A DNA stretch of 41,940 nt from Paenibacillus oceani (lineage in GTDB: Bacteria; Bacillota; Bacilli; Paenibacillales; NBRC-103111), in NCBI RefSeq assembly GCF_014705615.1, contig NZ_JACXJA010000065.1, positions 1 through 41,940 of the forward strand, read 5' to 3'. Made by a program: the position numbers and the translations under genes. Below are positions 1,487-29,680 of the stretch, piece after piece (positions within the stretch are counted from its first letter, which is position 1; each line of letters opens with the position of its first letter). The notes under the pieces are model-generated. The model was given only the letters and a program-made list of their open reading frames with translations. It had not been told where the DNA came from and searched no databases.

Positions 1487-4400
1487 TCAGCCGACCTTTA
1501 CATCGACTTCCTCCGGCCGGTACACGGCCAGCAGGTCGCCCGCGCGGTTCGTCGCAAACAGCACCGAGCGTTCGCTCTCGAGCTTGAAGGAATAGGTGCG
1601 GCCCGACATCGGGTCCTTCACCCGGATTGCGGCGCTGCGGCCGTATTCCGATACGAACACGTACAGCGAGCCGTCGCGGAACTCCAGCTTGCGGCCGTAT
1701 ACGCCGGGCAGCCCGCCGCCAAGCTCCCACTCCAATTCCGGGGCGATGCCGCAATCTGCAAGCACGTGCCCGTACAGGGCGTTCACCGCTTCGCTCCGGT
1801 CGTTCAGCTCGACCGGCAGCCCCGTCCACAGCAGACGGCCCGCGCCAAGCGTGACCTCCGTCAGTCCAGCCGGCACCTCCGCCTCATCCGTTTCCCGCCC
1901 GGAACCGGAGACCGCGACGGTTTCCTTGCACAGCTGCGCGATCTTGCGCTCCCCGAACGATAAGCGCACGACTGATTCCCCGACAGCCAGTTCCTCTTCA
2001 CGCAGAACATTCCCCAGCTTACGTGGCCCGAGCCGGCCCGTCAGCCTGTCGACCGGCTGCCAATACTCGTTCAGTCCGGCCGGACCGGTGAACAGCAGCG
2101 TGCCTCCCGCTTCGCTCACATGATCCATTAGCTGCCGCAGTGCCGCGTCGCTGAAATTGTGAGCGCTCGGCACAACGATCAGCTTCGGCGGGTGATCCTT
2201 CAGCGCGCTTTGCTCGTATTCGCCCAAGGCGCGGAAATGCGCGTTCAGCTCGTAGGCGAGCACCCTCGTCAGCCGGCTCGTCGCTTCGACCGCGAGCCTC
2301 CGGTTCGACAAATCGTTCGAATACGGGAACACGACGACGATCTCCTCCAGCCGCCGGTCCTCGAACAGATCGCGAATGGCAGCCATAAACCGTCCGAAGC
2401 CGTACGACACGTCCGCTTCCGGCTTCTGGGTGCCGTCCGCCCGCAGAGCTCCGATATTCGATTCGTTGACGTTGTTCATATACATATTCGTATGCCACAG
2501 CCATTGCACCGCACCGGCTCCGCCGGTCGAGAACGCGTAAGCGTATTTGCGCTCCAAAATGTTGCGCAGTTCCGCTTCCGAGCGTTTCGCCCGGCCGTCC
2601 GGCGTCTCGACGTACATAATGCCGGTCTCCTGAATCAGGTTCGGCTTGCGCGGCGCTTTGGCGAATATTCCGTCCCATACCAGCTGATCCATCAGCCACC
2701 ACGAATGATTCGTCGTATAATCGACCGCGCTTTCGTACAGGAACGGCGAAGGCCGCTGGGCGCCGAGCGCTTCGTCCTGACCGACCGTGATCAGCCGGTC
2801 CGGAGCGAGCATGCGGATCGTGGCGCTCAGCTCCTCCGTCCACCGGTTCAGCATCTCCATGCCGAACAGCGAGTAGTCGAGCCAGCGCGTCCCTCTTTTG
2901 CCGGAATGCATGTCCTGAATGTCGAAATTGATCTCCGACGGCTCGGGCGGCCGCACCGCTTCGAAGCCGGGCAGTTCGGCCGGCGTATATCCCCATCGCT
3001 CCTGGAGCACGCCGATCGTCGCATAGCGGGCTTTCAGCCATCCGATGTAGGCAGCCTGCTCATAAACGTCCCCGCTGCTTCGCGGTCCTTCGAAAATACG
3101 CTTGGGATCGAACATCGACGGCTCGTTGATCAAATCCCAATGCACGTTCGTCGTCTCGCGATGCCTCGACACGATCGCCGCGATAAACCGTTTCTGCGCC
3201 GCCACGCTGCGCGGATCGAGGTACGGGTTCGTCCCTTCCCACAGCTCCGGCGTAAAGGCGAAAAAATTAAACGTCACCTCCAGGTCGTGCCGCTTGGCGG
3301 TTAAAATAAACGCGTCGATCGCCCGCAGCGCTTCCTCGGAAGGGTGCCCGTCCTCGTACATCACATTGCGGTAGCCGGTCCACAGCCCGGTTCGAATCAG
3401 ATTGATCCCGGCCCGCTTCATCTCGGCCATGTCCCGGTCCCATACCGCTACGTTGGGCAGGAACAAAAACTTGCGCGCCACGTCCGACGTCATGTAGGTC
3501 ATCCCGACGATCGGCAGCGGCCGGCCTTCCTTGCGAAAATAATCGCGGCCGCATACGAGCGGCTCGCCCTGCGCCAGCAGCTCGCGATCGAACCCCCACA
3601 CGGCCTGACGCAGCACGCGCTTCTCTCCGTTGTCAGAGACGGCGGTCAGCTCGGCGCTGTAAAGCCCCGGACTCAGCTCGACCGGAACGTGCAGCGGAAT
3701 GACCGCCAGCTCCCGGGAGCCGTTCCACTCGAACGTATGCGTCCATTCCGGCGATCCCGACGCGATGCCGCCGTCAGGCGACGGCTTGCCGAAGCGGAAC
3801 GTGCAGCTCCAGCTGCTTCCGGCGCCTGTGGCAGCCCCATCCGCCCGTCCCCGGCCGAGCTGCTGCATCTGGCAGCGAAACTTCGGCCGGTCTCCCGGCT
3901 CATAGGCGGCATACAGCGGCAGCAGCCACATCTCGGCGACGCCGTGCGAGCAGAAGCGGGCCCAAGCGGCAATCGCCTCCTCGCCCGCTTTCGCCCAGAA
4001 GCTGGACGTTAGCCGCTGGTTCACGAACAGCCAGCGGCCGCCGGCGAATTCGCCCTTCGCATGCTCCAGCAGCACGACCGGCGCCGCCACCTCGCGGCCG
4101 TCCGCCGCGACGCCCTTCACAAGCGGAACCAGACGCGCGTCCATCGGTCCGGCCGATCCGCTTTCATGCGGAATATCGCTTTGCCGGGTGACGTGCATAA
4201 TCAAGCTGCAGGTCGGCTCGACCGTCAACGCCTCCATGTAAGGAGAGGCGACGGGAATATCTCCGTTCGCAACGAGACGTACGATCGGCGACGGGTCGAT
4301 CGGCATCGCCTCATGGATCAGCAGTTGGCGATGATAGGCCGTCTGCTCGGCCTCCACGGCCCACTCACCGTCCTTGCGGCTTACCGGCAGGCGGAAAGGC

Positions 4401-4648
4401 GCTCCGCCTGCGCTGACCAAACCGCCGCCGCGTTTCAGAAACTGGAGAATCGCACGCCAGGCGAGCTTCGGAAAATAAGGAGCGTGCATATTGACGAAGC
4501 AGCCGCCCTCGCAATCGTCGAGCGCCTCGGCCAGCCCTTCGGCGTCGACCAGGGAGCCAGCGGCGGCGAGCCGTTCGAGCTGCCCCATATCCGGCGCCTC
4601 GGACGCCAGCGGGAAGCCGGGCTCGTAAAATAAAATCGTACGATTCAT
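1487..4648 (-). CDS. Large clan GH-A glycoside hydrolase with C-terminal GATase-like domain
   Basis: A 1053-residue protein without a signal peptide, so probably cytoplasmic. Residues 1-350 form an unassigned N-terminal part with a Rossmann-like start and a beta-rich region. A TIM barrel spans about 365-730. It contains WDLINEPS with Glu509 as the likely acid/base and LIQETG with Glu674 as the likely nucleophile, the two-glutamate layout of clan GH-A retaining enzymes. Residues 770-900 resemble the GATase-like trimerisation domain of GH42 beta-galactosidases. The NEP motif looks more like GH5/GH2-type enzymes than GH42, so the family stays open. It is last in an operon with GH38, GH125 and two sulfatases. 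A beta-mannosidase or beta-galactosidase role is inference. The TAAGGAGG binding site contains the stop codon of the upstream sulfatase gene. Confidence 0.85.
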   Translation of the reverse strand: MNRTILFYEPGFPLASEAPDMGQLERLAAAGSLVDAEGLAEALDDCEGGCFVNMHAPYFPKLAWRAILQFLKRGGGLVSAGGAPFRLPVSRKDGEWAVEAEQTAYHRQLLIHEAMPIDPSPIVRLVANGDIPVASPYMEALTVEPTCSLIMHVTRQSDIPHESGSAGPMDARLVPLVKGVAADGREVAAPVVLLEHAKGEFAGGRWLFVNQRLTSSFWAKAGEEAIAAWARFCSHGVAEMWLLPLYAAYEPGDRPKFRCQMQQLGRGRADGAATGAGSSWSCTFRFGKPSPDGGIASGSPEWTHTFEWNGSRELAVIPLHVPVELSPGLYSAELTAVSDNGEKRVLRQAVWGFDRELLAQGEPLVCGRDYFRKEGRPLPIVGMTYMTSDVARKFLFLPNVAVWDRDMAEMKRAGINLIRTGLWTGYRNVMYEDGHPSEEALRAIDAFILTAKRHDLEVTFNFFAFTPELWEGTNPYLDPRSVAAQKRFIAAIVSRHRETTNVHWDLINEPSMFDPKRIFEGPRSSGDVYEQAAYIGWLKARYATIGVLQERWGYTPAELPGFEAVRPPEPSEINFDIQDMHSGKRGTRWLDYSLFGMEMLNRWTEELSATIRMLAPDRLITVGQDEALGAQRPSPFLYESAVDYTTNHSWWLMDQLVWDGIFAKAPRKPNLIQETGIMYVETPDGRAKRSEAELRNILERKYAYAFSTGGAGAVQWLWHTNMYMNNVNESNIGALRADGTQKPEADVSYGFGRFMAAIRDLFEDRRLEEIVVVFPYSNDLSNRRLAVEATSRLTRVLAYELNAHFRALGEYEQSALKDHPPKLIVVPSAHNFSDAALRQLMDHVSEAGGTLLFTGPAGLNEYWQPVDRLTGRLGPRKLGNVLREEELAVGESVVRLSFGERKIAQLCKETVAVSGSGRETDEAEVPAGLTEVTLGAGRLLWTGLPVELNDRSEAVNALYGHVLADCGIAPELEWELGGGLPGVYGRKLEFRDGSLYVFVSEYGRSAAIRVKDPMSGRTYSFKLESERSVLFATNRAGDLLAVYRPEEVDVKVG

Positions 4649-4658
4649 ATCTTCCTCC

Positions 4659-6179
4659 TTACTGCTCGATTCGCATCCGCTTGTACTGCCGCAGCAGCCC
4701 GTCGTCGTGCAGCGTCATCCAATCCGCCAGCGCCTGCCGCATCCCGGCCAACTGATCCCCGTACTCCTCTGTGCCGACCAGATTGGTCATCTCGTACGGG
4801 TCCGCCTGCAGATCGTACAGCTCGTCGAGATCGCCACAGTTGAACACGTATTTGTAATGACCCTTGCGGATCATGCGCTGCGTGAACATCGCCGCCTCCA
4901 GCCCCGCCCCTTCGGTGACGATGCTGTCCGGCCAATTCTCCACCGTTCCTCCCGCCAGCATCGGCGCGAACGAGCGGCCGTCAGTTCCTTCCGGCAGCGC
5001 CCCTGCCCCGGCCAGATCGAGAATCGTAGCGTGAATGTCGCACGTGCCTACGAAGCTGGCTTCCTTGCGCGAGCCGTCCAGTCCGGCAGCCGGCTTGACG
5101 ATCAGCGGGATGCGGCACGTTTCCTCATACATGAAGAACGACTTGTCGCACAAACCGCCATGAATGCCAAGTGATTCGCCGTGATCGGCGGTAAAAATAA
5201 TAATCGTATTATCGTACAGATCATGGCGCTTCAAATAATCTAACAGACGCCCGATCTGCTCGTCGATGCTGCTCATCGCCGCATAATAATGCTTGATATA
5301 CGGAACAAAATCGGCCCACTCCTTCGTGTTGCCCCTCTTGATGCTGTGAATGGACGGTTTGTCCGAACGGTCATCGTAAAAATTCGGCCAAGGCTCCAGC
5401 TCCACGTCGCGATACAGGTCCAGGAAGCGGGTCGGCGCGATGTACGGCTCATGTGGCCCCCAGAAGTTCAGCGAGAAGAAAAACGGCTTGTCCCGCTGGC
5501 GGAACTCGTCGATATAATGGATCGCCCGCTCGGTCAGAAAATACTCGACCGTCGACTCGACAGGAGACGTCAGCTCGGACGCGTAATGCCATTCGAAATG
5601 ACCGCTCACCTTATTCTCCTCTTGCCAGGTCAAGCCGTTGTCCTGTAAATATTGGCGGAACTGCGGGTAGGTCATTCCACCGCCGCCGTGACCGGCGAAG
5701 TCGTCGCCTTCATAGCCGACGTCGGTCGGCAGCGACTTGATGCCTGCGGCAATGTCCGCAAACTGCACGTGCGCGAGATTGCCCCGTAAATATTGGCCCA
5801 TCTCCGGCCCGAAGCCGAGATGCCATTTGCCGGTGTAGCCGATACTGTAGTCTTGCTGCTCCAATTGCCGGCTCAGCAGCCGCGGCGTATCCGGCAGCTC
5901 CTGCACCATGCTGCCCATGCCGTAGCTGTTCGTCTGCATGCCGTGCTTGAACGGATACAGCCCCGTTTGCATCGAAGCGCGCGCCGGCGTACATACCGGG
6001 CAGCTCGTATAGGCGTTGTCGAACACGACGCTTTCTTCGGCCAACCGGTTCAAATGCGGGGTTTGGCACACCCGGCCCCCGTAGCTTTTCAGCGTATCGA
6101 CACGCTGCTGGTCGGTCTGGATGAACAATATATTCGGACGACGGCTCTCCGTCTTTTTCTGGCTGGTTGGGGTAGACAT
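4659..6179 (-). CDS. S1-family sulfatase (first of two)
   Basis: A 506-residue type I sulfatase that hydrolyses sulfate esters. RPNILFIQTDQQ near the N terminus carries metal ligand Asp23. CTPARASMQTG (Cys63-x-Pro-x-Arg67) is the signature whose cysteine is converted to formylglycine. TADHGES and other metal-site blocks follow. There is no signal peptide, so it should act on imported substrate in the cytoplasm. A Cys-type motif can be matured by FGE or by an anaerobic radical-SAM enzyme; neither is in this window. The start has a GGAAGGAG site seven bases upstream. It lies 61 bases after the GH125 gene and directly abuts the GH-A gene. The substrate is unknown; context suggests sulfated mannose-containing oligosaccharides. 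Confidence 0.9.
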   Translation of the reverse strand: MSTPTSQKKTESRRPNILFIQTDQQRVDTLKSYGGRVCQTPHLNRLAEESVVFDNAYTSCPVCTPARASMQTGLYPFKHGMQTNSYGMGSMVQELPDTPRLLSRQLEQQDYSIGYTGKWHLGFGPEMGQYLRGNLAHVQFADIAAGIKSLPTDVGYEGDDFAGHGGGGMTYPQFRQYLQDNGLTWQEENKVSGHFEWHYASELTSPVESTVEYFLTERAIHYIDEFRQRDKPFFFSLNFWGPHEPYIAPTRFLDLYRDVELEPWPNFYDDRSDKPSIHSIKRGNTKEWADFVPYIKHYYAAMSSIDEQIGRLLDYLKRHDLYDNTIIIFTADHGESLGIHGGLCDKSFFMYEETCRIPLIVKPAAGLDGSRKEASFVGTCDIHATILDLAGAGALPEGTDGRSFAPMLAGGTVENWPDSIVTEGAGLEAAMFTQRMIRKGHYKYVFNCGDLDELYDLQADPYEMTNLVGTEEYGDQLAGMRQALADWMTLHDDGLLRQYKRMRIEQ

Positions 6180-6240
6180 ACGTTGGCTCCTTCCGGTTAT
6201 AACGAATTTTACTATGGCAGCTGTTTTCAGCTTGTGGCTG

Positions 6241-7509
6241 TTACCGCTTCATCCACTTGTATACAGCTTCGGCAAACAGACTGTTCGCCCAGGCAAACCA
6301 AGGACGCGTAAACTGGCCCGGATCGTCGACATGGAACCCTTCGTGCATAAATCCGGTCTCCGCGTCGGTCGATACGCACGTCTCAATCAGCGCTTCCGCT
6401 TCGCCCGGATCGGTCGCCGTGAGCGCCTGCATCGACAAGGCGATATGCCATATATAACGGTCCGGCGTATGCGGGCTTCCGATGCCCCGGGCGGCGCTTC
6501 CTTCGTAGTAATAAGGATTGCGCTTGCTCAGGATGAACCTACGTGTATTTTGCACCATCTCGTCGACCGCGCTCCGGTAGCCGATATACGGAATCGAGAG
6601 CAGGCTCGGCACGTTCGCATCGTCCATCAGATTATGGTTGCCGAAGCCGTCGGTTTCGTAAGCGTACATTTTACCGAATTCCGGATGGTACACCGTGCCG
6701 TACGTTTCGATGCCGTACTCGATCTCCTCCGCAAGCCGGGCCGCATCCCGTTTCAAATAATCGTCTTGAAAGACGACCTCGGCGATTTCCGCCACATGAA
6801 CGAGCGCCACCGCCGCGAACATGTTCGACGGAATCAAGTAGCCGAACGTGCATGCGTCGTCGCTCGGACGAAAGCCGCACCAGGTCATGCCCGTATATTG
6901 CACCGGCATGCCTTGGCCATTATTGCGCAGCGTGTCCGATTTCGGACCGGTCAGCCGGGTGAACCGGTAACCGGACTGCTCGCTATGGCGCTGCTCGGTC
7001 GTCCACAGGCGGATGATCGAGCGGACCGCCGCCCGGTACGATTCATCGAACACGCTGGCCCGCCCGGTCGCCTTCCAATACGCGTAAGCCAGCTCCAGCG
7101 GGTAACATAATGAGTCGATTTCGTATTTACGCTCCCATACCCACGGGCTCAGCTCGGTCAGATCCTCCTCATAACGCCGCCCGTTCGGCTCCTCGTTAAA
7201 CGCGTTGGCGTAAGGATCGATGCCGATGTAAAAAAATTGGCGGCGCAGCAATCCTTCGATCAGCGCCTGAAGCTCCTCGTCTTCTGCAGCCAGCGGCACA
7301 TAGTGGCGGACCTGGGCGCTGGAATCGCGCAGCCACATGGCCGGAATGTCGCCCGTAAAGACGAAGGTCGTGCCGTCGGCCAGCCGTTTCGTAGTCGTTT
7401 CGATCGTATTAACGTAGCATTGTTTGAATAAACGAAGCAGCTTCGGACGGTCAGCCAGTTTCACGTCGGCCTCGCGCAGCAGCTGTTGAACAGCCGGGGG
7501 CATCGTCAT
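6241..7509 (-). CDS. GH125 exo-alpha-1,6-mannosidase
   Basis: A 422-residue protein matching the metal-independent glycoside hydrolase family 125 (formerly DUF1237). It shows GDIPAMWLRDSSAQVRHY near residue 55, a glycine/tyrosine-rich (alpha/alpha)6 barrel and the C-terminal MHEGFHVDDP and TRPWFAWANSLFAE blocks typical of the family. Known members in Streptococcus pneumoniae and Clostridium perfringens release alpha-1,6-linked mannose from N-glycan-like substrates. There is no signal peptide. It follows the GH38 gene by 58 bases, and the two are natural partners because GH38 removes other alpha-mannosyl linkages. A second ATG two codons in is an equally good start; AAGGGAGAGAG lies upstream. 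Confidence 0.92.
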   Translation of the reverse strand: MTMPPAVQQLLREADVKLADRPKLLRLFKQCYVNTIETTTKRLADGTTFVFTGDIPAMWLRDSSAQVRHYVPLAAEDEELQALIEGLLRRQFFYIGIDPYANAFNEEPNGRRYEEDLTELSPWVWERKYEIDSLCYPLELAYAYWKATGRASVFDESYRAAVRSIIRLWTTEQRHSEQSGYRFTRLTGPKSDTLRNNGQGMPVQYTGMTWCGFRPSDDACTFGYLIPSNMFAAVALVHVAEIAEVVFQDDYLKRDAARLAEEIEYGIETYGTVYHPEFGKMYAYETDGFGNHNLMDDANVPSLLSIPYIGYRSAVDEMVQNTRRFILSKRNPYYYEGSAARGIGSPHTPDRYIWHIALSMQALTATDPGEAEALIETCVSTDAETGFMHEGFHVDDPGQFTRPWFAWANSLFAEAVYKWMKR

Positions 7510-7567
7510 CGTGTCTCTCTCCCTTGTCGATGGTTTCCGATTTTTACGGCTCAGCTCCGAACCGGTG

Positions 7568-10384
7568 TCAGCGGGATACGCTCGCCGGGCGAATGCCGAC
7601 CGTTACGATTTCGCAGCCGCCTGCCGTCAGCTCCGCTCCGTTCTCTGCGGCCAGCTCGGCACCGGCATCCTCCAAAATTCCGCTCCGGTAAGCCGATTCG
7701 GCGCCGATCACCGCGTTCATCCGGAACGAAAGCTCCGTGCCGCGCTTGCCCATGTTGTACCATCTCGCCATCCAGTCGCCCGTCTGCTCGTTAAGCTTCA
7801 GGCTCGAGAACGCCATGCCCGCTCCGCTCCATTGCAGGAACGATAAAGACGCCGGCAGCAGATGGCGATCCGCAAGTTCCCGTCCAGCCTCAGTCATGTC
7901 CGGCCGGATCTGGATCGTTTGCCACGGAATCTGGTATTTGTAGGCTTCCGCGTAAGCGGAGAACGCCGGCTCTTCCCCGCCGCCGTCATGCGGAATGACA
8001 TACAGTTCCGCGGTGCAAGGCCGCAGACATTGTGCCTCGGGCGTCAGGAAGACGCCCCAGTCGCCCAATTCGGCAACGGAGCGGACGAGCGTAACGGCAA
8101 TCGTCGACCGGCCGTCACGCACAAGCTCGTACTCCTGCAGGCCGCGGTTCGCCACGGTCAGTCCGCTCGTCTCGTCATGCACACTCGCAAAGGCGTGCTG
8201 GTGCTGGCAGTTGCTCGGGTTTTTCCACTCCGCCGAAGGTTCGTTGTCCCGTCTCGCCACCTCGAAGATCGAATCAGCATAATGAACGCTCGAGCGCGAA
8301 TCCGTCGGAAACAGCATCCGCAGACGGTGATCCTTCGCCTTGTTGTCGAAGGACGACAACAGACGGACGCCTTTGCCGTTTGCTTCCAGCTCGACGATTA
8401 GCCGCAGCTCCATCGGCACCGTCGCCGACGAACGGCAAGCCTTCCGGCTCGTGAAAGGGACCATGCCGGCGATTTCCGCTTCCAGCCGCTCGTCCGCCGA
8501 AGCGGGCAGCTTGATGCGATGAACGATTTCGATAGCGGCGCGGTAGCCTGTGTCCTCCGTCAGGCGGATGTCGGCGGCGCATCCTTCGGTCGTCCATACG
8601 GAGCCGTCGGCGGATTGCTTGTAAATGTATTCGTTGCCGATATCCCCCGTATCTTCATAAACGCCGAGCCCCGCATAGATCCGCCCTGTTCTTTTTTCAG
8701 TCACAGTCAGCGAGCCGTCGCCTTCGATCTCTACTTTCAAATACCGGTTCTCCAGCGTCCGTTCTCCGGCCGTTACCTTTTCTCCGGCGACTGCCTCAGC
8801 AGCCGCAGCCGTATGTGCTGCTTGTCCCGTTACCCACGCATAAGTCCGGTACCCAAGCGCCGGCACCGCTCCGCTATGGAACGTCAGGCGGATGCGGCGG
8901 CCCATGTACGGCTGGCGGAACTTGTCGTCCGGCAAGTCGTACCCGAACTGGACGCCGAGGTCATCCAGCGTATGGAGTACAGGCCGGCCGTTCTCGTCCA
9001 CGAGCAACCCTGTCGGCAGCGGTAGCGCGCCAAGCTCCCGGGCGAGCCGGTCTGGTGCGCCTTCGCTGAAATAGCTGTGTCCGACCGTCAGTTCGACCGA
9101 AACCGTTCCTTTGCGCTCCCAGCCGGACGTGTTGAATACGGTGAACGGAAACGCACTTTCGCCTGCCGCTCCGTCCCCGGCAAATGCCGACGTATCGATA
9201 TGGCCAGTTATCGTCTGCAAGCTTTCAGCGATTACGTTCTCCGCCACCTGTCCGCTTTTCTCGAAGCGGGTCACCATCTCCCGGTGCACTTCGTCGACGC
9301 TGCAGCCGCATATGCTGTCGTGCGGATGGTTTTGCATCAGCGTCTTCCAGCCGTATTCCAGCCAATGCGAAGGATAAGGATGGCCGAGAGAAGCTGCGAA
9401 CACGGCGAGCGGCTCCGCCGCTTTCTCCAGCAACGTCTGCACCTTATGGTTCATCTGCTTCAGATACACTCTCGCAGACGCCGTATTCACCAGCGTATAC
9501 CAGCCTTCGGTCCGCTGGCTGCGCAGTTCTCCCTCGATCACGGACAGACGCTCCGGCATGGTCGCTTTCACCGCTTGCACATACTCCTCGAAGCTGGAAT
9601 GGACGAACCGGGTATCCGGATACAGACGCTCCGCCGTCCGGATCGCTTCCGTCAAATCGGTCTGTAGCGGCTGGTGATCGCAGCCGTTCATAAACAGCAG
9701 GTGCGGCGTGGAAGCGAACTTCTCCGCTTTGTCCAGCCTGGAATCCCAGTAAGCTTTCGCCTGTTCCGGATCGACAGGCACTTCCATGCCGTTGCAATAC
9801 CAGTTGGCGAACAAAATGCCGAGCACCGACGAGCCGTCCGGAGACTTCCACATCATCTCGGAATACGGCGACTCGTACTCGCCCGCATCCCCTACCGAGT
9901 TATTGAAGCCGGTCGGCGTTACACCGCGGCCGAACACGGCCGTATCGATGCCCGCCTGCAGGAGCAGCTGGGGCGCTTGCCCCATATTGCCGAACGAATC
10001 CGGGAAATAGCCGATTTTGCACACAACTTCCTCTCCGTACTTGGCGGCGTCGCGATGGCCGTATTGCAGGTTGCGCACGTTGGCTTCGCTGCTCGTCAGA
10101 AATTCGTCCTGGAGCACGTACCAGGGGCCGATAATCAGACGTCCTTCGCGGATATGGCGGGCCAGCCGTTCTTGCTGTTCCGGGCGAATTGCCAAGTAAT
10201 CGTCCAAGATGATCGTTTGCCCGTCCAGATGAAAGCTGCGGAACGACGGATCGGACTCGATCGTATCGAGCAGCGTATCCATCAGTTTAACCAGCAAATG
10301 ACGGTGCGTCTCGAACGGCAAATACCATTCGCGGTCCCAATGCGAATGCGAAATAATGTGGGCAGTTTTCTTGCTGCTATCCAT
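7568..10384 (-). CDS. GH38 alpha-mannosidase
   Basis: A 938-residue retaining alpha-mannosidase. HIISHSHWDREWYLPFE (residues 9-25) supplies zinc ligands His15 and Asp17. GYFPDSFGNMGQAPQL holds the likely nucleophile Asp129. HPHDSICGCSVDEVH carries the later zinc-ligand histidine. The C-terminal half is the beta-sandwich region of the family. No signal peptide is present, so it is expected to act in the cytoplasm on imported mannosides. An open frame extends 21 codons upstream, but an AAGGAGGA site 6-7 bases before the ATG at 10384 decides the start. It is separated from the upstream sulfatase by a terminator-like hairpin. Linkage preference cannot be read from sequence. Confidence 0.93.
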   Translation of the reverse strand: MDSSKKTAHIISHSHWDREWYLPFETHRHLLVKLMDTLLDTIESDPSFRSFHLDGQTIILDDYLAIRPEQQERLARHIREGRLIIGPWYVLQDEFLTSSEANVRNLQYGHRDAAKYGEEVVCKIGYFPDSFGNMGQAPQLLLQAGIDTAVFGRGVTPTGFNNSVGDAGEYESPYSEMMWKSPDGSSVLGILFANWYCNGMEVPVDPEQAKAYWDSRLDKAEKFASTPHLLFMNGCDHQPLQTDLTEAIRTAERLYPDTRFVHSSFEEYVQAVKATMPERLSVIEGELRSQRTEGWYTLVNTASARVYLKQMNHKVQTLLEKAAEPLAVFAASLGHPYPSHWLEYGWKTLMQNHPHDSICGCSVDEVHREMVTRFEKSGQVAENVIAESLQTITGHIDTSAFAGDGAAGESAFPFTVFNTSGWERKGTVSVELTVGHSYFSEGAPDRLARELGALPLPTGLLVDENGRPVLHTLDDLGVQFGYDLPDDKFRQPYMGRRIRLTFHSGAVPALGYRTYAWVTGQAAHTAAAAEAVAGEKVTAGERTLENRYLKVEIEGDGSLTVTEKRTGRIYAGLGVYEDTGDIGNEYIYKQSADGSVWTTEGCAADIRLTEDTGYRAAIEIVHRIKLPASADERLEAEIAGMVPFTSRKACRSSATVPMELRLIVELEANGKGVRLLSSFDNKAKDHRLRMLFPTDSRSSVHYADSIFEVARRDNEPSAEWKNPSNCQHQHAFASVHDETSGLTVANRGLQEYELVRDGRSTIAVTLVRSVAELGDWGVFLTPEAQCLRPCTAELYVIPHDGGGEEPAFSAYAEAYKYQIPWQTIQIRPDMTEAGRELADRHLLPASLSFLQWSGAGMAFSSLKLNEQTGDWMARWYNMGKRGTELSFRMNAVIGAESAYRSGILEDAGAELAAENGAELTAGGCEIVTVGIRPASVSR

Positions 10385-10401
10385 TCCGATTCCTCCTTGT
10401 G

Positions 10402-10436
10402 AAAGAGAAAAGAGAGGCGAGCCCCTCTCTTCTCCG
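10402..10436 (-). terminator. Terminator-like hairpin inside the glycan operon
   Basis: On the minus strand AGAAGAGAGG pairs with CCTCTCTTTTCT around a GGCTCG loop and is followed by CTTTC. It lies between the sulfatase stop at 10490 and the GH38 start at 10384. A short stem with a pyrimidine-rich tail could attenuate or stabilise the operon transcript. It is not a strong terminator. Confidence 0.4.
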
Positions 10437-10489
10437 ACCTTCTTCATGTAAGTCGCCTCAGCGAGGGAGGCGAATCTGCCAATTCTCCG

Positions 10490-11785
10490 TTACTCGGCGG
10501 GAACGAGTCCCGCGTACCAATCGCGCACATCCTTCTCCAGACGCGACGCCAGTTCGGGATATTCGTCCTTCCGATTGACGCGTTCGCCAGGGTCCGCTTC
10601 CAGATCGGACAAATGAACCGCGTCGGGCTGCGTCCGGTCGAAGTCCAGCTTGCCGCCGAGCACCAGCTTCCATTTGCCCTCGCGGACCGCGAGCTGGCTG
10701 CCGTATTCCCAGAACAGCTGGCGGTGCGGCGTAGCCGCCTCCTCGGTCACCATCGCCACGACGCTGCTGCCGTCGATCTCTCCGGCCGCCGGAGCCGCAA
10801 GCCCGGCGAATTCGAGTACGGTCGGCACGAAGTCGGCCATCATCCCGGCTTCTTCGCATACTTGCCCGGCCGGTATCCGGTCCGGATAGACGAGGATGGC
10901 CGGCTCGCGAATGCCGCCGTCGAAAAGGCTCGCCTTATGCCCCCGGAAGATGCCGGCGCTGCCGCCGTAATAGACGTCTTCCGTGCCGTCCAGATAGTTG
11001 CGCGCCTCCGAAGACGGACCGTTGTCGCTCGAGAAAAAGACGATCGTGTTCTCGTATACCCCGGCCCGCTTCAACGCGGCTACGATGTCGCCGACCCCGT
11101 CGTCCACCGCCGAGATCATCGCCGCCATCAATTGACGGTCGCGCGGCAGATGACTGTAACGATGCATATATTTGTCCGGCGCATGCATTGGGTAGTGCGG
11201 AGCGTTATAAGCCGCGTACAGGAAAAATGGCTGCTCGCGGTTGCGCTCGATAAATTCGACCGATTTGTCGGTAATGAGATGCGTCATATATTCGCCGTCG
11301 TGCCATACTTCCTCGCGATTGCTCCACAGGTCGTGCACCGGATTCACATGCGGCACGCCCCAATAAAAGATATGCGAGTAGTAGTCGATACAGCCGGCAT
11401 GAAAGCCGAAATATTCGTCGAAGCCGCGAGCGTTTGGCTTGGCGCCTTCCGCGGAGCCGAGATGCCACTTGCCGTGCAGCGCCGTCCGGTAACCGGCCGG
11501 CTTCAGTCTCTCGGCGAGCGTTTTCGCCCCCGGCTTCAGTCCTCCGGTTCCCCGCTTGCCGCCCAGAATATGGCTGACTCCGGCTTTTGCCGGATACAGT
11601 CCGGTCAACAAAGCCGCGCGGGACGGCGAGCAGACGGGCGAATTGGAGTACCAGTCGGTGAAACGCACCCCATCCGCCGCCAGCGCGTCCAGATGAGGGG
11701 TACGGATCGCATCGGACCCGTAACACCCCAAATCGCCGTACCCCAAATCGTCGCAGTAAAAAACTACGATATTCGGCTTTGACAT
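10490..11785 (-). CDS. S1-family sulfatase (second)
   Basis: A 431-residue type I sulfatase. SKPNIVVFYCDDLGYGD holds the N-terminal metal-binding aspartates (Asp12, Asp13). CSPSRAALLTG (Cys52-x-Pro-x-Arg) is the formylglycine signature, and FFSSDNGPSSEA gives a further metal site. No signal peptide is visible. It is only distantly similar to the other sulfatase in this operon (431 versus 506 residues, different flanking sequence), so the two probably attack different sulfate positions. The frame is open from a GTG three codons earlier, but AAAGGTG is correctly spaced for the ATG at 11785. It follows the solute-binding protein gene by about 20 bases, so it belongs to the transporter operon. 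Confidence 0.9.
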   Translation of the reverse strand: MSKPNIVVFYCDDLGYGDLGCYGSDAIRTPHLDALAADGVRFTDWYSNSPVCSPSRAALLTGLYPAKAGVSHILGGKRGTGGLKPGAKTLAERLKPAGYRTALHGKWHLGSAEGAKPNARGFDEYFGFHAGCIDYYSHIFYWGVPHVNPVHDLWSNREEVWHDGEYMTHLITDKSVEFIERNREQPFFLYAAYNAPHYPMHAPDKYMHRYSHLPRDRQLMAAMISAVDDGVGDIVAALKRAGVYENTIVFFSSDNGPSSEARNYLDGTEDVYYGGSAGIFRGHKASLFDGGIREPAILVYPDRIPAGQVCEEAGMMADFVPTVLEFAGLAAPAAGEIDGSSVVAMVTEEAATPHRQLFWEYGSQLAVREGKWKLVLGGKLDFDRTQPDAVHLSDLEADPGERVNRKDEYPELASRLEKDVRDWYAGLVPAE

Positions 11786-11806
11786 AGCGATCACACCTTT
11801 ACAGCA

Positions 11807-13396
11807 TTATTTGTTTTTATTCCAGCGGTCGTAAGCGTCTTGATAAATTTTCAGCATTTCGTCGAGACCCATCTTTTTGATCGTATTCACGTAGTCGTCC
11901 CATTTCGTGAACGGCTCCTGGCCAACGATGAATTTCGCTTCCATCTGCTCTACGTACGTCTTGATGTCGGTTTTGACGACGTTCAACCGTTTTTGTTCTT
12001 CGCTGCTGAAGTACACGTCCGGATATTCTCGTTTCGCATACGGATTCAGCTTTTCGTCGACCATCTTGTTGTAATCCAGACCTTTGCCGTTGTCGCGCTT
12101 CGAGTCGAACTCTCTCTCCTTGATCAGCGGAAGCTGGCCGCCTACGTCCGGCGTAAGCTTGGCGCGGTATTCCTCTGCGTTCACGCCTTCCGGAGAAACG
12201 AACGTCCATTTTGTTTTGGCGTCGTCCAGCCATTTGTAACTGTTGCCGAGGAAGCCGAGGCGGCTGCCTTCATCCGAATACAAGTAGTCGACCCAACGCA
12301 TCGTCGCTTCCGGATGTTTGTTATTGCTCGTAATCGCGAACGTACCGCGGCGAATGTTCGAGGCGCGCATCGTCAGCTTTTCACTGTTGAACTTGCTTGT
12401 AAGCGGAGCAAGCATCGGATGTTTGTAGTTGTCTTCCGGCTTGGCCACCTTCAGCACCAGATCGGGAGCTGATCCCACGAACGCGCCGACTTGATTCGAA
12501 TTGCCTTTGGCCGCCATTTGCTGGGACGTTTGCACGAACATTTCGTTATCCAGCAGCTTTTCGCTGAACAGTTTGTTCAAGTAGCTCAAATATTCCTTGT
12601 ACTCGTTCTGAACCGGGTTAAAGCGGACCTTGCCGTCCTTCACTTCCACTTCGCGGCCGAGCAGGCCGAATGCCGGAAGCAGGACACCTTCGAGGTTGTT
12701 CAGCTTAACGTTGGACATCGGAATTTCGTCGGCTTTGCCGTTTTTATTCGGGTCTCCGTTTTTGAATTGCTTCAGCAGCTCGTAAAAATCGTCCGTAGTC
12801 TCCGGAAGCTTCGTAATGCCGAGGCTCTCCATCCAGTCGCCGTTCAGCCAGAGCCGGTTCGGGACGAACGCCCGCGGCTGGTCGATAATAAGCGGCAGCG
12901 CGTAAATGTGACCGTCCATCGTCGTGATCGACTTTTTAATATCCGGATTGGCTTCCATCCGCTTCTTCAGGTTAGGCGCGTATTTCTCGATCAGCTCTTC
13001 GAGCGGGATCAGATACCCTTGGCTGCCGTAAGTAACTTCATCGTCCGGAGTAAGCAGCGAATTGAAAAAGACGTCAGGCAGCTGGCGGCTCGCGAAAGCG
13101 AGGTTTTTCGCCTCCTGGTAATTCGCCTGCGGCGGAGTGTTGAACTCGAAATGAATGTTCGTCATTTTCTCCATTTCCTTGAACAACACCATTTCGTTCC
13201 AAGGTCCGTGGATAGCCGCTTTCGATCCCATCATGTTCAGCGTTATTTTCTCGTTAACGACCGGGTACCCTTCGGCATTGAAATTTTTCGCCTGCCCGTT
13301 TTCCGCTTTCGGCTCCTCGGTTTTTCCGCTGCAGCCAGCCAGCAGCACGGCGCCTCCCACAGTCGTAACCATAATTGTCTTCAACCATTTTTTCAT
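11807..13396 (-). CDS. Carbohydrate ABC transporter solute-binding lipoprotein (LipO/YtcQ type)
   Basis: A 529-residue extracellular sugar-binding protein. A positively charged N terminus and hydrophobic stretch end in the lipobox LLAGC, giving lipid-modified Cys22. A Lys/Glu-rich linker follows, then a family 1 binding fold with the DPNKNGKADEIP calcium-loop-like motif common in this Paenibacillus/Bacillus group. It lies just downstream of its two permeases, an arrangement common for CUT1 systems that rely on a shared ATPase encoded elsewhere. No ATPase gene is in this cluster. The ligand is presumably the oligosaccharide handled by the downstream mannosidases and sulfatases. The start ATG has an AAGGGG site. 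Confidence 0.92.
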   Translation of the reverse strand: MKKWLKTIMVTTVGGAVLLAGCSGKTEEPKAENGQAKNFNAEGYPVVNEKITLNMMGSKAAIHGPWNEMVLFKEMEKMTNIHFEFNTPPQANYQEAKNLAFASRQLPDVFFNSLLTPDDEVTYGSQGYLIPLEELIEKYAPNLKKRMEANPDIKKSITTMDGHIYALPLIIDQPRAFVPNRLWLNGDWMESLGITKLPETTDDFYELLKQFKNGDPNKNGKADEIPMSNVKLNNLEGVLLPAFGLLGREVEVKDGKVRFNPVQNEYKEYLSYLNKLFSEKLLDNEMFVQTSQQMAAKGNSNQVGAFVGSAPDLVLKVAKPEDNYKHPMLAPLTSKFNSEKLTMRASNIRRGTFAITSNNKHPEATMRWVDYLYSDEGSRLGFLGNSYKWLDDAKTKWTFVSPEGVNAEEYRAKLTPDVGGQLPLIKEREFDSKRDNGKGLDYNKMVDEKLNPYAKREYPDVYFSSEEQKRLNVVKTDIKTYVEQMEAKFIVGQEPFTKWDDYVNTIKKMGLDEMLKIYQDAYDRWNKNK

Positions 13397-13479
13397 CTTG
13401 CTTAACCCCTTCCCATATCGGTATCTATATGAAGAACGGCTTGTCGCCGTTGTTCACGAACTTAGACGGCGGCTGCGGC

Positions 13480-14373
13480 TCAGCCTTTGACCGAACCGAT
13501 CAGCACGCCTTTCATGAAGAAGCGCTGCATGAACGGATAGACGATAATGATCGGCAAACTCGATACGATCATGACGGCGTATTTGATAATGTCCGCGATC
13601 CGTGCCTGCTTCGCCATCGCTTCCATGTCGTCGCCCGTCATCAGCATCGCGTCGCTCATCTGATTCTGCACGAGAATTTCCCGCAGGATCAGTTGAAGCG
13701 GGTACAAGCTGCGATCCTTCAAATAAATGATCGCGCTGAAGTAACTGTTCCAGTGCGCCACCCCGTAATACAGCGCCATGACGGCGATGATCGGAGCGGA
13801 CAAGGGAAGCACGATCTTAATGAACAGCATCGTATTGGAGCAGCCGTCGATTTCCGCCGACTCCTGAAGCTCCCGCGGAATATTCATCTGGAAAAACGTG
13901 CGGCAGATGATCAGATTGTACACGGCCACCGTATTCGGAATGACGAGCGCCCATACCGTATTGAGCATGCCCAGTTCGCTGACCAGCAAGAAGGTCGGCA
14001 CGAGTCCGCCGCCGAAAAACATCGTAAACACGATCAGGCCCATCATCGGCCCGCGTCCCAGCAAATCTTTGCGGGATAACGCGTAGGCGGCGGGAACGGT
14101 AAACAACAGGTTGATGAACGTGCCGCCCAGCGTGTACAGCACCGTATTGCGATACCCCGACCAGATTTCCGGGTTCTGGAAGACGCGCTGGTAACCTTCG
14201 AACGTAATGCCTCGCGGGAACAGCCACATCTTCCCTTGATTGACGTAGACCGGATCGCTGATCGAAGCGCTGATGACATAGATGATCGGATACAATACGG
14301 CAATAAGCACTCCCAACAGAAACAATTTGTTAATGAAGTTGAACACACGGTCCGACCACGATTCTCTAATCAT
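13480..14373 (-). CDS. CUT1 sugar ABC transporter permease (YtcP/LplC type)
   Basis: A 297-residue inner membrane permease with six predicted membrane helices. The EAA loop near the C-terminal third reads ELQESAEIDGCSNTMLF, the contact for the ATPase. The C terminus FFMKGVLIGSVKG is characteristic of the YtcP/LplC group. The frame opens at a GTG three codons earlier, but that codon directly abuts the AAGGGAG site. The ATG at 14373 is better spaced. It follows the other permease gene by about 15 bases and precedes the binding-protein gene by 83 bases. Confidence 0.92.
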   Translation of the reverse strand: MIRESWSDRVFNFINKLFLLGVLIAVLYPIIYVISASISDPVYVNQGKMWLFPRGITFEGYQRVFQNPEIWSGYRNTVLYTLGGTFINLLFTVPAAYALSRKDLLGRGPMMGLIVFTMFFGGGLVPTFLLVSELGMLNTVWALVIPNTVAVYNLIICRTFFQMNIPRELQESAEIDGCSNTMLFIKIVLPLSAPIIAVMALYYGVAHWNSYFSAIIYLKDRSLYPLQLILREILVQNQMSDAMLMTGDDMEAMAKQARIADIIKYAVMIVSSLPIIIVYPFMQRFFMKGVLIGSVKG

Positions 14374-14388
14374 TATTACCACGCTCCC

Positions 14389-15345
14389 TTACCATAGGCT
14401 CGTTTCGTTTACCCGTCTGGCGATCCGGTTTACGGTAAGCAGCAGGATAAAGTTAATTACCGAGTTGAACAGGCCGATCGCAGCCGAGAAGCTGAACTGG
14501 CCTTGGACAAGTCCGCTCCGGTATACGTAAGTGGAGATGACGTCCGATGTTTGCAGATTTAACGGGTTTTGCAGCAAAAATACTTTCTCGAATCCGACGG
14601 ACATGAAGCTGCCGACATTCAAAATCAGCAGGATGACCATCGTCGGCACGATGCTGGGCAGATTGATATGCCAGACGCGCTGTATCCGGGTTGCTCCGTC
14701 CATCATCGCCGCTTCGTGCTGCTGCGGATCGACGCCGGCGAGCGCAGCCAAATAAATGATCGTCCCCCAGCCCATATTCTGCCACACGCCCGACATAACG
14801 AATACGGTCTTGAACCAGCCCGGCTCGGTCAGAAACGGGATCGGCTCACCGCCCAGCGCTTTGATCGCCAGATTGATAATACCGCTTCCCGGCGCGAGAA
14901 ACGCGATGATCATCCCGGCCATGACGACTACGGATATAAAGTGAGGTGCGTACGTGATCGTTTGCACCCATTTTTTGAACGCTCCGTTTTTCAGCTCGTT
15001 AATCGCCAAGGCCAGCAGGACCGGCACCGGAAAACCGACAATCAGCTCATACAGGCTGATCCCAATCGTATTTTTAATAAGGGTCCAAAAATAGTAAGAA
15101 TCGAAAAATCGCTTTAAATGTTCGAGCCCGACCCATGGGCTGTTCCATATGCCAAGACTTGGCGTGTAATCCCGAAATGCAATCTGCAGACCGTACATCG
15201 GGAAATAATGGAAGACGATAAAGTAAGCAATTGTCGGCAGTACGAATAGATACAGCTCCCAGTTTTTGCGAATCGACTTCCAACCGCTGTTTCGCCGCGA
15301 TGCGCGTTCGGCGCCTTGAGCGAGCGGCTCCGTTTTGACTGTCAT
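14389..15345 (-). CDS. CUT1 sugar ABC transporter permease (LplB/YteP type), first gene of glycan operon
   Basis: A 318-residue permease with a basic cytoplasmic N terminus, six membrane helices and the EAA motif QQHEAAMMDGATRIQRVW near residue 230. LplB-type proteins pair with LplC/YtcP permeases and a lipoprotein, as here. The ATG is preceded by a GAGGGGGAG site. It is the first gene of the minus-strand operon running to 1487. A cre-like sequence lies about 52 bases upstream of the start, which suggests carbon catabolite control. Confidence 0.92.
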   Translation of the reverse strand: MTVKTEPLAQGAERASRRNSGWKSIRKNWELYLFVLPTIAYFIVFHYFPMYGLQIAFRDYTPSLGIWNSPWVGLEHLKRFFDSYYFWTLIKNTIGISLYELIVGFPVPVLLALAINELKNGAFKKWVQTITYAPHFISVVVMAGMIIAFLAPGSGIINLAIKALGGEPIPFLTEPGWFKTVFVMSGVWQNMGWGTIIYLAALAGVDPQQHEAAMMDGATRIQRVWHINLPSIVPTMVILLILNVGSFMSVGFEKVFLLQNPLNLQTSDVISTYVYRSGLVQGQFSFSAAIGLFNSVINFILLLTVNRIARRVNETSLW

Positions 15346-15616: not shown

Positions 15617-15660
15617 ACAAAAAGCCGGCTCCCCGAAAACGAGATTCGGGAAACCGGCTG
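15617..15660 (-). terminator. Rho-independent terminator
   Basis: On the minus strand AGCCGGTTTCCCGAA pairs with TTCGGGGAGCCGGCT around a TCTCGTT loop and is followed by TTTTTG. It ends the transcript of the small membrane protein gene at 15771-16094 and insulates it from the glycan operon. The rest of 15346-15770 holds no gene that I can support. Confidence 0.8.
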
Positions 15661-15770
15661 CTTGAAGATAACGCGTTCCGGCGCCAAGTATGCCGCTTGC
15701 TGTATGGAACGGGAGCGAATAAAAAAAACCGCCAGCCGAAGCTAACGGGGACGTGTGATATATATAACTC

Positions 15771-16094
15771 TTACACTTTACGTTTTCGAATGAAGATGAA
15801 ACCGACATTTACAAGACTGCTCAATATAAAAGCTGCCGTGTAAAGAACCAAGAAGACGAGTATATTCAAAGGGTCGGTATACACCAAAAACGATACAATG
15901 GAAGCGATCACATATAACCCAAACCCTACAGCAAGCGACTGTACCATTAAAGCGGATTTCTTAAAAACCTTGCTTCTTCTTAGAATCGCAAAACATACAG
16001 GCACAATCAGCACGATTGCCAACAAACTCAAATTAATAAAACCTTCTAAATCGATGTGGACCCCCCCTAAATATGCAAACCCACTAAAATCCAT
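15771..16094 (-). CDS. Small three-helix membrane protein, unknown function
   Basis: I do not recognise this 107-residue protein. Three hydrophobic stretches (about 21-38, 48-72 and 75-101) predict membrane helices, and the C terminus is basic (FIRKRKV). A strong terminator follows on the same strand, which supports a real gene. The surrounding DNA is more AT-rich than its neighbours. The ATG at 16094 has no good ribosome binding site. A purine-rich AGGGGGGG at about 16064-16071 could serve a later start, so the N terminus is uncertain. It sits between the AraC sensor gene and the glycan operon, but nothing links it to either. Confidence 0.5.
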   Translation of the reverse strand: MDFSGFAYLGGVHIDLEGFINLSLLAIVLIVPVCFAILRRSKVFKKSALMVQSLAVGFGLYVIASIVSFLVYTDPLNILVFLVLYTAAFILSSLVNVGFIFIRKRKV

Positions 16095-24043: not shown

Positions 24044-25775
24044 TCGGCTGCACCTCCTTCCCGATTTGCGACACGTAGATTTCCTTGTATACGCTGCATT
24101 CCCGCAGCAGTTGCTCGTGCCGGCCGATTCCGACGATCTCCCCTTGGTCGAGCACGATAATCTGGTCGGCATCCATAACCGACGTAATCCGCTGTGCGAT
24201 GAGCAGGCACGTTACGTTGCTTGCGTATTGTTTTAACGATTGCTTGATCTTCGCTTCAGTAGCAACGTCTACCGCGCTGGTGCAGTCGTCCAGTATCAAT
24301 ATATCCGGCCTTCGGATGAGCGCCCGCGCAATCGAGACACGCTGCTTCTGCCCGCCCGACAAATTAACTCCGCGCTGGCCGAGCACGGTATCGTACCCCT
24401 CCGGGAAAGCCGCTACGAACTCATGCGCTTCGGCGAGCTTGGCGGCGTGTTCGATCTCCTCGCGGGTCGCATCGTCCTTGCCCCACCTAATATTGTCCGC
24501 TACCGTACCGGAGAACAGCACCGATTTTTGGGGAACGATGGCGATTTTCTCCCGAAGCGCGCTCGGATCGACCTCCAGCACGTTCGTTCCGTTCACTTTG
24601 ACCGTACCCGAATCGGCATCATAAAAACGCGGGATCAGTCCGATCAGACTGCTCTTACCCGAACCTGTAGATCCGATAATGCCTACCGTTTGCCCCGGCA
24701 AGCAGGTGAAGCTGATGCGATGGAGCGCCGGCTCGCCCGACGGGCCGTCGTACGAAAACGTCACGTTTTCGAAATCGACTCTCCCTCTCGCGGCCGGAAC
24801 GTCCCGGATCGTCTGTTCCTTCCACATCATCGTATTCATCTCGGCGAACACTTCCCCGATCCGCACAGCGGAAGCCCGCGCACGGACGAACATGTTAAAT
24901 ACCATCGAGATCATCAGCAGCGACATTAAGATTTGGGTCATATAGTTAATAAAGGCCAGCACGTGCCCGACCTGCATCTGACCGCTGTCCACCCGGATGC
25001 CGCCGATCCAGATGACGGCGACGATCCCGAAGTTGACGGTCAGCATAATGGCCGGGTTAAACACGGACATCGCTCTCATCACCTGGACCGAGCGGTCTTT
25101 GTATTCGCCGTTCGCCTTGTCGAATTTGTCCGTTTCGTAGTCGAACCGGTTAAACGCCTTCACGACCCGCACACCTGATAAATATTCGCGGATGACGCCG
25201 TTGACCCGGTCCAGCGCCTTCTGTACCTTCATAAACCGCGGAAAGCCGATCTTCATGTTCAGCACGACGAGCAAAGCGACGACGGGGACGACGACGGCAA
25301 GGACGGTCGACAAGTGCGGATTAAGCCGGACGGCCATAATCAAACTGCCGATGCAGAGCAAGGGAGCTTTTACGAAAATACGCATAAGTCCGTTCACGAA
25401 GTTTTGCACTTGCGTCACGTCGTTCGTCAGCCGGGTAACCAAGGAAGCCCTTTCAAATTGATCGATGCTTGTAAACGACAAGCTCTGGATCTTGCGGAAC
25501 AAGTCGGCCCTCAGCTCGGTGCCGAACTTCTGCGAGACGCGGCTGGCGATGATATTGCGCGCACTGGCGGACAACGCCCCGACAGCCGTAATAAACAGCA
25601 TCAGGCCTCCGATCCGCATGATGTAATCCATCCGGCTCTCGGCTACCCCGACATCGATAATGCTCGCCATCAGCGTAGGCAGCATGAGATCACACAGCGC
25701 TTCAATCGTGAGAAAGAAGACCGCTACGCAAAACAGCTTCCAATACTTTTTGACATACACGTTCAAAAACTGCAA
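24027..25775 (-). CDS. ABC exporter half-transporter with degenerate ATPase site (YfiB/TM287 type)
   Basis: A 582-residue half-transporter with six membrane helices (about 13-300) and an ATPase domain. Walker A is GSTGSGKS (368-375), the signature is canonical LSGGQ (472-476), and Walker B reads DILILDD, with Asp497 where the catalytic Glu is expected. This substitution marks the non-hydrolysing site of heterodimeric exporters such as TM287/TM288 and BmrCD. Its own canonical LSGGQ would complete the active site of the partner. The start is TTG with a GAGGAGAG site. It is the first gene of a two-gene operon. Confidence 0.92.
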   Translation of the reverse strand: MQFLNVYVKKYWKLFCVAVFFLTIEALCDLMLPTLMASIIDVGVAESRMDYIMRIGGLMLFITAVGALSASARNIIASRVSQKFGTELRADLFRKIQSLSFTSIDQFERASLVTRLTNDVTQVQNFVNGLMRIFVKAPLLCIGSLIMAVRLNPHLSTVLAVVVPVVALLVVLNMKIGFPRFMKVQKALDRVNGVIREYLSGVRVVKAFNRFDYETDKFDKANGEYKDRSVQVMRAMSVFNPAIMLTVNFGIVAVIWIGGIRVDSGQMQVGHVLAFINYMTQILMSLLMISMVFNMFVRARASAVRIGEVFAEMNTMMWKEQTIRDVPAARGRVDFENVTFSYDGPSGEPALHRISFTCLPGQTVGIIGSTGSGKSSLIGLIPRFYDADSGTVKVNGTNVLEVDPSALREKIAIVPQKSVLFSGTVADNIRWGKDDATREEIEHAAKLAEAHEFVAAFPEGYDTVLGQRGVNLSGGQKQRVSIARALIRRPDILILDDCTSAVDVATEAKIKQSLKQYASNVTCLLIAQRITSVMDADQIIVLDQGEIVGIGRHEQLLRECSVYKEIYVSQIGKEVQPNVQAE

Positions 25776-25871
25776 CCCGATCTCTCCTCACCTATTAGCG
25801 CTATCGTTATTATACATCCATAACCGGCAAAGAGGTATCACATCATTACCTAACTACCTATCGGTTCAGCC

Positions 25872-25926: not shown

Positions 25927-25960
25927 TCGCTTATACGCTTCCTAGCGCCATTATGCCGGT

Positions 25961-29651: not shown

Positions 29652-29680
29652 AACGCCCCGTTAACTTCCTTCATTGGAAA

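Follow-up and report, generated by a model that had tools for sequence, protein, structure and literature searches.

The window analyzed here, a 41,940-nucleotide stretch of Paenibacillus oceani DNA that makes up C62, one of 94 contigs in a draft genome of 8.05 Mb, carries eight consecutive minus-strand genes encoding a GH38 α-mannosidase, a GH125 exo-α-1,6-mannosidase, two Cys-type S1 sulfatases (SULF1 and SULF2), a large clan GH-A glycosidase (GHA), and a CUT1-type importer made up of a solute-binding protein (SBP) and two permeases (PERM1 and PERM2). The same set is collinear in four further species and is thus beyond chance. We give a little better than even chances to the reading that this putative operon specifies a cytoplasmic pathway for the utilization of sulfated oligomannosidic, N-glycan-type oligosaccharides.

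Gene content and conservation of the operon

An ORF check recovers all eight ORFs between positions 1487 and 15,345 at the coordinates proposed in an earlier, sequence-only reading of this DNA (Table 1), with intergenic gaps from PERM1 through GHA of 6, 83, 12, 42, 58, 61, and 10 bp; their cotranscription is inferred. Pfam backs every assignment with the exception of GHA, discussed below. A crude hydropathy test, judged by eye, finds a signal-peptide-like hydrophobic start on none of the enzymes, and SBP carries a lipobox. The sequence-only reading had described a single operon with two dissimilar Cys-type sulfatases and enzymes devoid of signal peptides, and on each of these counts the ORFs, Pfam families, motifs, and hydropathy agree with it.

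Table 1. Predicted features of the operon and its upstream region
Feature	Predicted product	Coordinates	Strand	Evidence
PERM1	CUT1-type ABC permease	14389..15345	-	PF00528 5e-18
PERM2	CUT1-type ABC permease	13480..14382	-	PF00528 3.9e-9
SBP	Lipoprotein solute-binding protein, 529 aa, lipobox LLAGC	11807..13396	-	PF01547 5e-17
SULF2	Cys-type S1 sulfatase, 434 aa, CSPSR	10490..11794	-	PF00884 1e-60
GH38	α-Mannosidase	7568..10447	-	Pfam; PDB matches 3lvt, 2wyh
GH125	Exo-α-1,6-mannosidase	6241..7509	-	PF06824 6e-160
SULF1	Cys-type S1 sulfatase, 506 aa, CTPAR	4659..6179	-	PF00884 2e-52
GHA	Clan GH-A glycosidase, 1053 aa, predicted β-mannosidase	1487..4648	-	Alignment, model, fold matches
AraC-type regulator	Probable operon regulator, 752 aa	16330..18588	-	GGDEF_2-like, AraC HTH; dCache match under cut-off
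Two hairpins	Terminator-like	15623..15748	-	Consensus match: 15623-15659 (15 pairs), 15729-15748 (8 pairs), T tails

The eight genes occur in the same order in P. contaminans (locus L013, where PERM1 lies at the locus edge), P. ginsengarvi (L014), P. mesophilus (L015), and P. doosanensis (L035), with protein identities of 71 to 93% over the longest aligned segments; the co-occurrence search suggested in the sequence-only reading therefore returns conserved order rather than poor synteny. Across 104 genomes of the family, SULF1 is found at E ≤ 1e-120 in nine, and the five GH125 sequences of at least 81% identity (the window counted) each lie within 0.6 kb of a SULF1 gene, the next best GH125 being 68% identical.

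To place the operon among other GH125 loci, we considered the 78 places in the family that match GH125 at E ≤ 1e-120 (more divergent GH125 fall outside this count) and scanned 76 of these, leaving out the window and one locus of genome G087 (L094). A GH38 of the window type is present in 47 of the 76 loci, and a sulfatase lies near GH125 in only six, namely the four other copies of the operon, L163 (at a distance of ≈7 kb), and L170. Sulfatases are thus the unusual part of the operon. GH125-GHA-GH38 loci are common in Paenibacillaceae, and examples such as L114 and L116 to L118 resemble the window in their enzymes (GH38 57-58%, GHA 56-57%, and GH125 61-62% identical), whereas their gene order differs and no sulfatase is detected within about 9 kb. 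L170, from another genus of the family (genome G062, C22:29000-48900), harbors two GH76, four S1 sulfatases, a GH125, and two SBPs; it is a second, separate sulfatase-mannosidase arrangement and a candidate locus for sulfated α-1,6-mannan. The P. oceani genome itself contains 20 PF00884 matches (19 over the cut-off), five GH38, and two GH125, and the window is the sole place where PF00884 falls within 10 kb of a GH38 or GH125; on contig C39 the closest pair is ≈57 kb apart.

Predicted enzymes and importer

Both sulfatases contain the C-x-P-x-R signature together with GKWHLG, which assigns them to the Cys-type S1 enzymes, and the Cys motif is retained in 33 of 33 SULF1 alignment rows and in all 13 SULF2 homologues looked at. 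The genome encodes a candidate maturation enzyme on contig C46, a formylglycine-generating-enzyme-type protein (292 bits) with the two-cysteine motif GGSYLCHKSYC, which we take to be the mark of that enzyme; maturation by anSME was considered and rejected (model score 22 bits against a cut-off of 349). By sequence and fold, the nearest solved structures of SULF1 are S1_30A, S1_11, S1_46, and PsS1_NC, all at similar closeness, with the S1_11 entries 7p24 and 5g2v (GlcN-2,6-disulfate) among the close relatives, whereas SULF2 is nearest to 6prm (exo-4S-κ-carrageenan) and 9fo1 (S1_16) and further from 9hh3 (S1_19). The fold neighbors of neither protein single out a specificity, and the open-licence literature on subfamily S1_30 offered nothing usable. 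That one or both proteins are instead phosphodiesterases of the phosphonate monoester hydrolase type, removing methylphosphate or a similar group from mannose, seems very improbable, given that SULF1 is nearer to carbohydrate sulfatases (9ihk, 3e-50) than to 2w8s (4e-37) and that SULF2 is closest to carrageenan sulfatases.

GH38 contains the GH38N, middle, and C-terminal domains (five Pfam domains) and matches solved structures over nearly its full length (842 bits to 3lvt and 810 bits to 2wyh), as expected of a family member; its true start may be an ATG 21 codons downstream of the annotated one. A mannosylglycerate hydrolase assignment was rejected (NCBIfam 489 bits against a cut-off of 1138), and no NCBIfam model scores above its cut-off among the matches listed for ten proteins. 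The Pfam match of GH125 is full length, and the protein scores 561 bits against 2nvp/6rqk. The importer consists of the lipoprotein SBP and two BPD_transp_1 permeases; no ABC ATPase gene lies within the operon, and the rest of the genome was not searched for an MsmX-type ATPase. CUT1 importers may use a shared MsmX-type ATPase encoded elsewhere. The nearest solved structures of SBP are 5g5y, 5xs8, 5gub, and AlgQ1/AlgQ2; since the NgtS structures 5SWA and 5SWB are not among its 14 PDB matches at E ≤ 0.001, we do not call SBP an NgtS orthologue.

GHA has no full-length family match, only partial Pfam matches to GH42 (4.5e-7) and GH5 (1.9e-6), both over their cut-offs. In clan GH-A enzymes the acid/base Glu is preceded by Asn, and a second conserved Glu is the nucleophile; we propose E509 (in NEP) and E674 (in QET) for these roles, and both are invariant in all 20 rows of an alignment that comprises the window, four of the loci found with SULF1, and 15 of 31 other GHA places chosen by eye. 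Ten GHA regions from nine genomes were likewise chosen by eye. A structural model of GHA (mean pLDDT 79.7) folds into a TIM barrel that holds the conserved Glu pair, consistent with clan GH-A, and a fold search by VIA places GH5 mannan-active enzymes and a GH164 β-mannosidase at the top. Identities to the fold matches are low (GH42, 13-16%; GH164, 11-12%; GH5, 12-19%), and the model fits GH5 and GH164 β-mannosidases, with GH42 suiting it nearly as well.

The genomic distribution of GHA is consistent with a function as a β-mannosidase for the N-glycan core, which it may be. Of the 76 GH125 loci, 42 contain GHA (the operon itself accounting for four) and none a GH2 β-mannosidase; the two never occur together in any of 110 loci (106 distinct, as L101 to L104 duplicate L013, L014, L015, and L035). 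GH130 and GH5_18 are the other known families for the Man-β-GlcNAc bond. The P. oceani genome has no GH2 β-mannosidase relative at E ≤ 1e-20, in a search that had no positive control and did not extend to GH130 or GH5_18. The sequence-only reading had counted the GH-A enzyme as part of a set devoted to a sulfated substrate, and this needs qualification: GHA does belong to the operon, but it is also usual in GH125 loci free of sulfatases. The genome carries further GHA copies. One on contig C30 (L078, L083; 66% identical) has a BNR-repeat protein and an SBP close by; one on C29 (L093; 58% identical, incomplete in the sequence examined) is ≈7 kb distant from the genome's second GH125.

Proposed substrate of the pathway

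In the pathway that we favor, an oligosaccharide freed outside the cell by an enzyme encoded elsewhere would be captured by SBP and imported, its sulfate still on, by PERM1 and PERM2 together with an ATPase encoded elsewhere. SULF1 and SULF2 would then take sulfate off two different positions, GH38 and GH125 would strip the α-mannoses, and GHA would cut the last Man-β-1,4-GlcNAc bond, with mannose, GlcNAc, and sulfate entering central metabolism. GH38/GH125 pairs are taken to be N-glycan-core trimmers, other Firmicutes included, and the pneumococcal binding protein NgtS binds Man5GlcNAc (PMC5215778). Sulfated oligomannosidic N-glycans, including those with 6-sulfate on the subterminal mannose, are described from Dictyostelium, in work that includes D. 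purpureum and D. giganteum (PMC11795075), and molluscs and insects are likewise reported to carry sulfated N-glycans (PMC4891362). That the operon has two dissimilar sulfatases where mannose is sulfated at two positions is suggestive and no evidence of specificity, and amoebae as the source of the glycan are a guess. We regard it as unlikely, though worth stating, that SULF1 and SULF2 are position-specific mannose sulfatases (e.g., for Man-6-sulfate and Man-2-sulfate) dedicated to soil-amoeba N-glycans and that GHA founds a family of N-glycan-core β-mannosidases filling the GH2/GH5_18/GH130 slot in Paenibacillaceae.

Homologous loci in other genera bear on the nature of the glycan. A scan of genome contigs with SULF1 yielded 34 loci, among them five from Bacillus and Lederbergia (L033, L034, L037, L038, and L044) in which SULF1 is accompanied by an AraC-type regulator, related permeases, SBPs, and, in all but L038, SULF2. 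All five have a GH29 beside SULF1, three a GH2 β-mannosidase (L034, L037, and L038), four another GH38 (L033, L037, L038, and L044), and four a GH3 (L033, L034, L037, and L044), which is an N-glycan-core repertoire. On plant N-glycans, a GH3 β-1,2-xylosidase and a GH29 core fucosidase are described as acting, and one such Bacteroides locus contains a sulfatase (PMC9522356). In the Bacillus loci L034 (4773-9821) and L037 (4261-9541), SULF1 is preceded by a tandem array of three SBP genes, 44 to 47% identical to the window SBP; in B. niameyensis L044 (10001-11768) SULF1 is broken and the SULF2 frame is short (225 aa), and GH29, GH38, and GH3 persist in the vicinity.

Because the P. oceani genome lacks GH92 and the Bacillus and Lederbergia loci bring GH29, GH2 β-mannosidase, and GH3 together with SULF1, an N-glycan-type substrate suits the operon better than an algal polysaccharide. 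A sulfated α-mannan, whether algal, fungal, or other, imported as oligosaccharides, is in our view quite an unlikely substrate. It has a precedent in the Polaribacter pathway for C6-sulfated α-1,3-mannan, where two sulfatases and two glycosidases degrade the polymer (Krull et al. 2026, PMC13063451), and L170, with its GH76 and sulfatases, suggests that sulfated α-1,6-mannan is used within the family; however, the window operon has no GH76 or GH92 match (the genome-wide search covered GH92 and not GH76), and GHA as a possible β-mannosidase, along with the neighbors of SULF1 in Bacillus and Lederbergia, indicates N-glycans.

A glycosidase acting on mannosides or N-glycans lies near SULF1 in 14 of the 34 loci, a count that rests on BLAST with window and Bacillus-locus proteins and on Pfam for selected neighbors, L029 being incomplete on one side. 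The 14 are the four collinear operons, the five Bacillus and Lederbergia loci, three Cohnella loci (L022-L024) with a different order (transporter, another sulfatase, GH125, SULF1), P. alba L026, where GH125 fragments (11515-11879) remain between SULF1 and a second sulfatase, and Pontiella L043, where SULF1 (47%) directly precedes a GH38. P. marchantiophytorum L027 gives no GH125 match. On a SULF1 tree of 33 rows (the window and 32 loci, L044 and P. cymbidii L045 (10001-10689) being left out because their SULF1 is broken), 14 rows have such a glycosidase nearby, with at least six state changes that may be gains or losses.

These neighborhoods also bear on where the sulfate sits. We consider it decidedly unlikely that the operon handles an N-glycan whose sulfates are carried by GlcNAc, fucose, or galactose instead of mannose, with GHA perhaps a β-galactosidase. 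The closeness of SULF1 to solved S1_11 structures, a gut sulfatase that attacks N-glycan GlcNAc-6-sulfate (PMC8379841), sulfated fucose in insects (PMC11795075), and the GH42 matches of GHA in Pfam and Foldseek would all accord with it; set against these are the operon of the window, in which nothing matches a hexosaminidase or a fucosidase, and the fact that mannosidases are the partners of the sulfatases there and in the loci of Cohnella and Pontiella. More improbable is that the sulfatases serve to obtain sulfate from an unrelated ester and are mere genomic neighbors of the mannosidases. The 20 SULF1 loci with none of these glycosidases detected fit such a role, including four (L030, L031, L036, and L040) in which SULF1 and SULF2 come after SBPs that belong to a single cluster (of DUF3502 type in L031), but the sulfatase, GH38, GH125, and GHA genes of the window are interleaved with gaps of 10 to 61 bp, and the SULF1 tree shows the link to mannoside and N-glycan glycosidases in several clades and genera.

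Several observations weigh against the sulfated N-glycan pathway as we propose it. Twenty of the 34 SULF1 loci have no detected GH38, GH125, GH2 β-mannosidase, or GH29 within 10 kb; the sulfatases are therefore not bound to mannosides everywhere, and sulfated mannose is unproven as their target. L016 keeps the AraC-type regulator, permeases, SBP, SULF2, and SULF1 and lacks GH38, GH125, and GHA; L017 to L020, L025, and L042 have SULF1 with neither SULF2 nor these glycosidases. A Gracilibacillus locus (L041) likewise combines the AraC-type regulator, SBP, SULF1, and SULF2 with none of the GH29, GH2 β-mannosidase, GH38, and GH3 seen in the Bacillus and Lederbergia loci. Only five species, all of one family, are known to have the complete operon, which contains no recognized enzyme for core fucose or the second GlcNAc. 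The genome lacks both GH85 and GH92 and has three GH18 matches (two on contig C45, one on C21); of 14 genomes searched for GH85, two, those of L033 and L044, have it. Neither sulfatase can be placed clearly in a subfamily whose specificity is known, and several of their nearest solved relatives act on carrageenan. For GHA, the model drops below pLDDT 50 in stretches flanking both catalytic Glu, Foldseek puts GH42 first, and the fold cannot separate a β-mannosidase from a β-galactosidase. That sulfated, mannose-rich oligosaccharides are taken up and dismantled in the cytoplasm, as put forward in the sequence-only reading, is still the best-supported explanation of the operon.

Flanking genes, related systems, and significance

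Upstream of PERM1, an AraC-type protein is the probable regulator of the operon. Its orthologue (69-82% identity) precedes the permeases in L014, L015, L016, and L035, and relatives at 30 to 37% identity do so in the Bacillus, Lederbergia, and Gracilibacillus loci. The two hairpins, which lie between a small ORF (15771-16094) and PERM1, may delimit the transcription unit on its upstream side, with the caveat that terminator-like sites over the region (19) are not above chance (15.9 ± 4.7 in shuffles); because the hairpins lie just upstream, transcription of the operon possibly starts between about 15,345 and 15,620. No σ70-like promoter was found before PERM1 (three in the whole region versus 7.1 in shuffles), and a CcpA cre site near the promoter was rejected (37 matches in the window versus 35 expected). 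Beyond the 3′ end of the operon, positions 1 to 597 encode a partial reverse transcriptase cut by the contig end (RVT_1, 28.2 bits, cut-off 29.6), possibly from a group II intron. Positions 22,160 to 31,506 encode another AraC regulator, a FecCD-type importer (periplasmic-binding protein, two permeases, and ATPase), and two ABC membrane-plus-ATPase proteins.

Among the nearest known systems is the N-glycan locus CPL of Streptococcus pneumoniae, which comprises GH20, ROK, GH38, GH125, GH92, and GH29 and works with NgtS-P1-P2 and EndoD (PMC5215778). The two share the GH38/GH125 pair and an SBP with two permeases, which in the pneumococcus import Man_nGlcNAc-type oligosaccharides, but the string "sulfat" does not occur in the main text of that paper, whereas the window operon has two sulfatases and GHA; conversely, the operon has no GH20, GH92, GH29, or ROK match. 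As the genome lacks GH85 (the EndoD family) and GH92, we do not file the operon as a pneumococcal-type member, though it may work alike. The GH38/GH5_18/GH20 locus of Cutibacterium acnes also combines a cytoplasmic GH38 and a clan GH-A β-mannosidase with an SBP and permeases, but its GH5_18 has 408 aa where the window has the 1053-aa GHA, and the available text mentions no sulfatase (PMC6160142). The Polaribacter locus likewise deploys two sulfatases and glycosidases to dismantle a sulfated mannose polymer; it differs in belonging to Bacteroidota, in operating extracellularly and in the periplasm, and in its enzymes (GH195, GH92, and sulfatases S1_51 and S1_11; PMC13063451), of which GH92 is absent from the P. 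oceani genome (GH195 was not searched). Type B flavobacterial α-mannan loci (GH76, GH125, and GH38) share the GH38 and GH125 combination, and α-mannan loci of the GH38/GH125 type are called notably devoid of sulfatases (PMC6298971). In the open-licence literature searched, GH38, GH125, and sulfatase come together in two papers, PMC6298971 and PMC12834350, and no Bacillota locus with this gene set is described in the titles and abstract openings, in keeping with the sequence-only reading, which knew of no characterized one.

If the proposed pathway is correct, sulfated N-glycan fragments would enter Gram-positive cells intact and lose their sulfate in the cytoplasm; the Polaribacter route for sulfated mannan, by contrast, works outside that compartment. 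SULF1 and SULF2 would be two candidate mannose sulfatases, useful in mapping N-glycan sulfation, and GHA a candidate new β-mannosidase family present at many GH125 loci. The pathway could also mean that soil bacteria feed on sulfated glycoproteins from amoebae or invertebrates. Should the more specific proposal of mannose sulfatases and a new GHA family hold as well, no Bacillota route for sulfated N-glycans would have been described before this operon.

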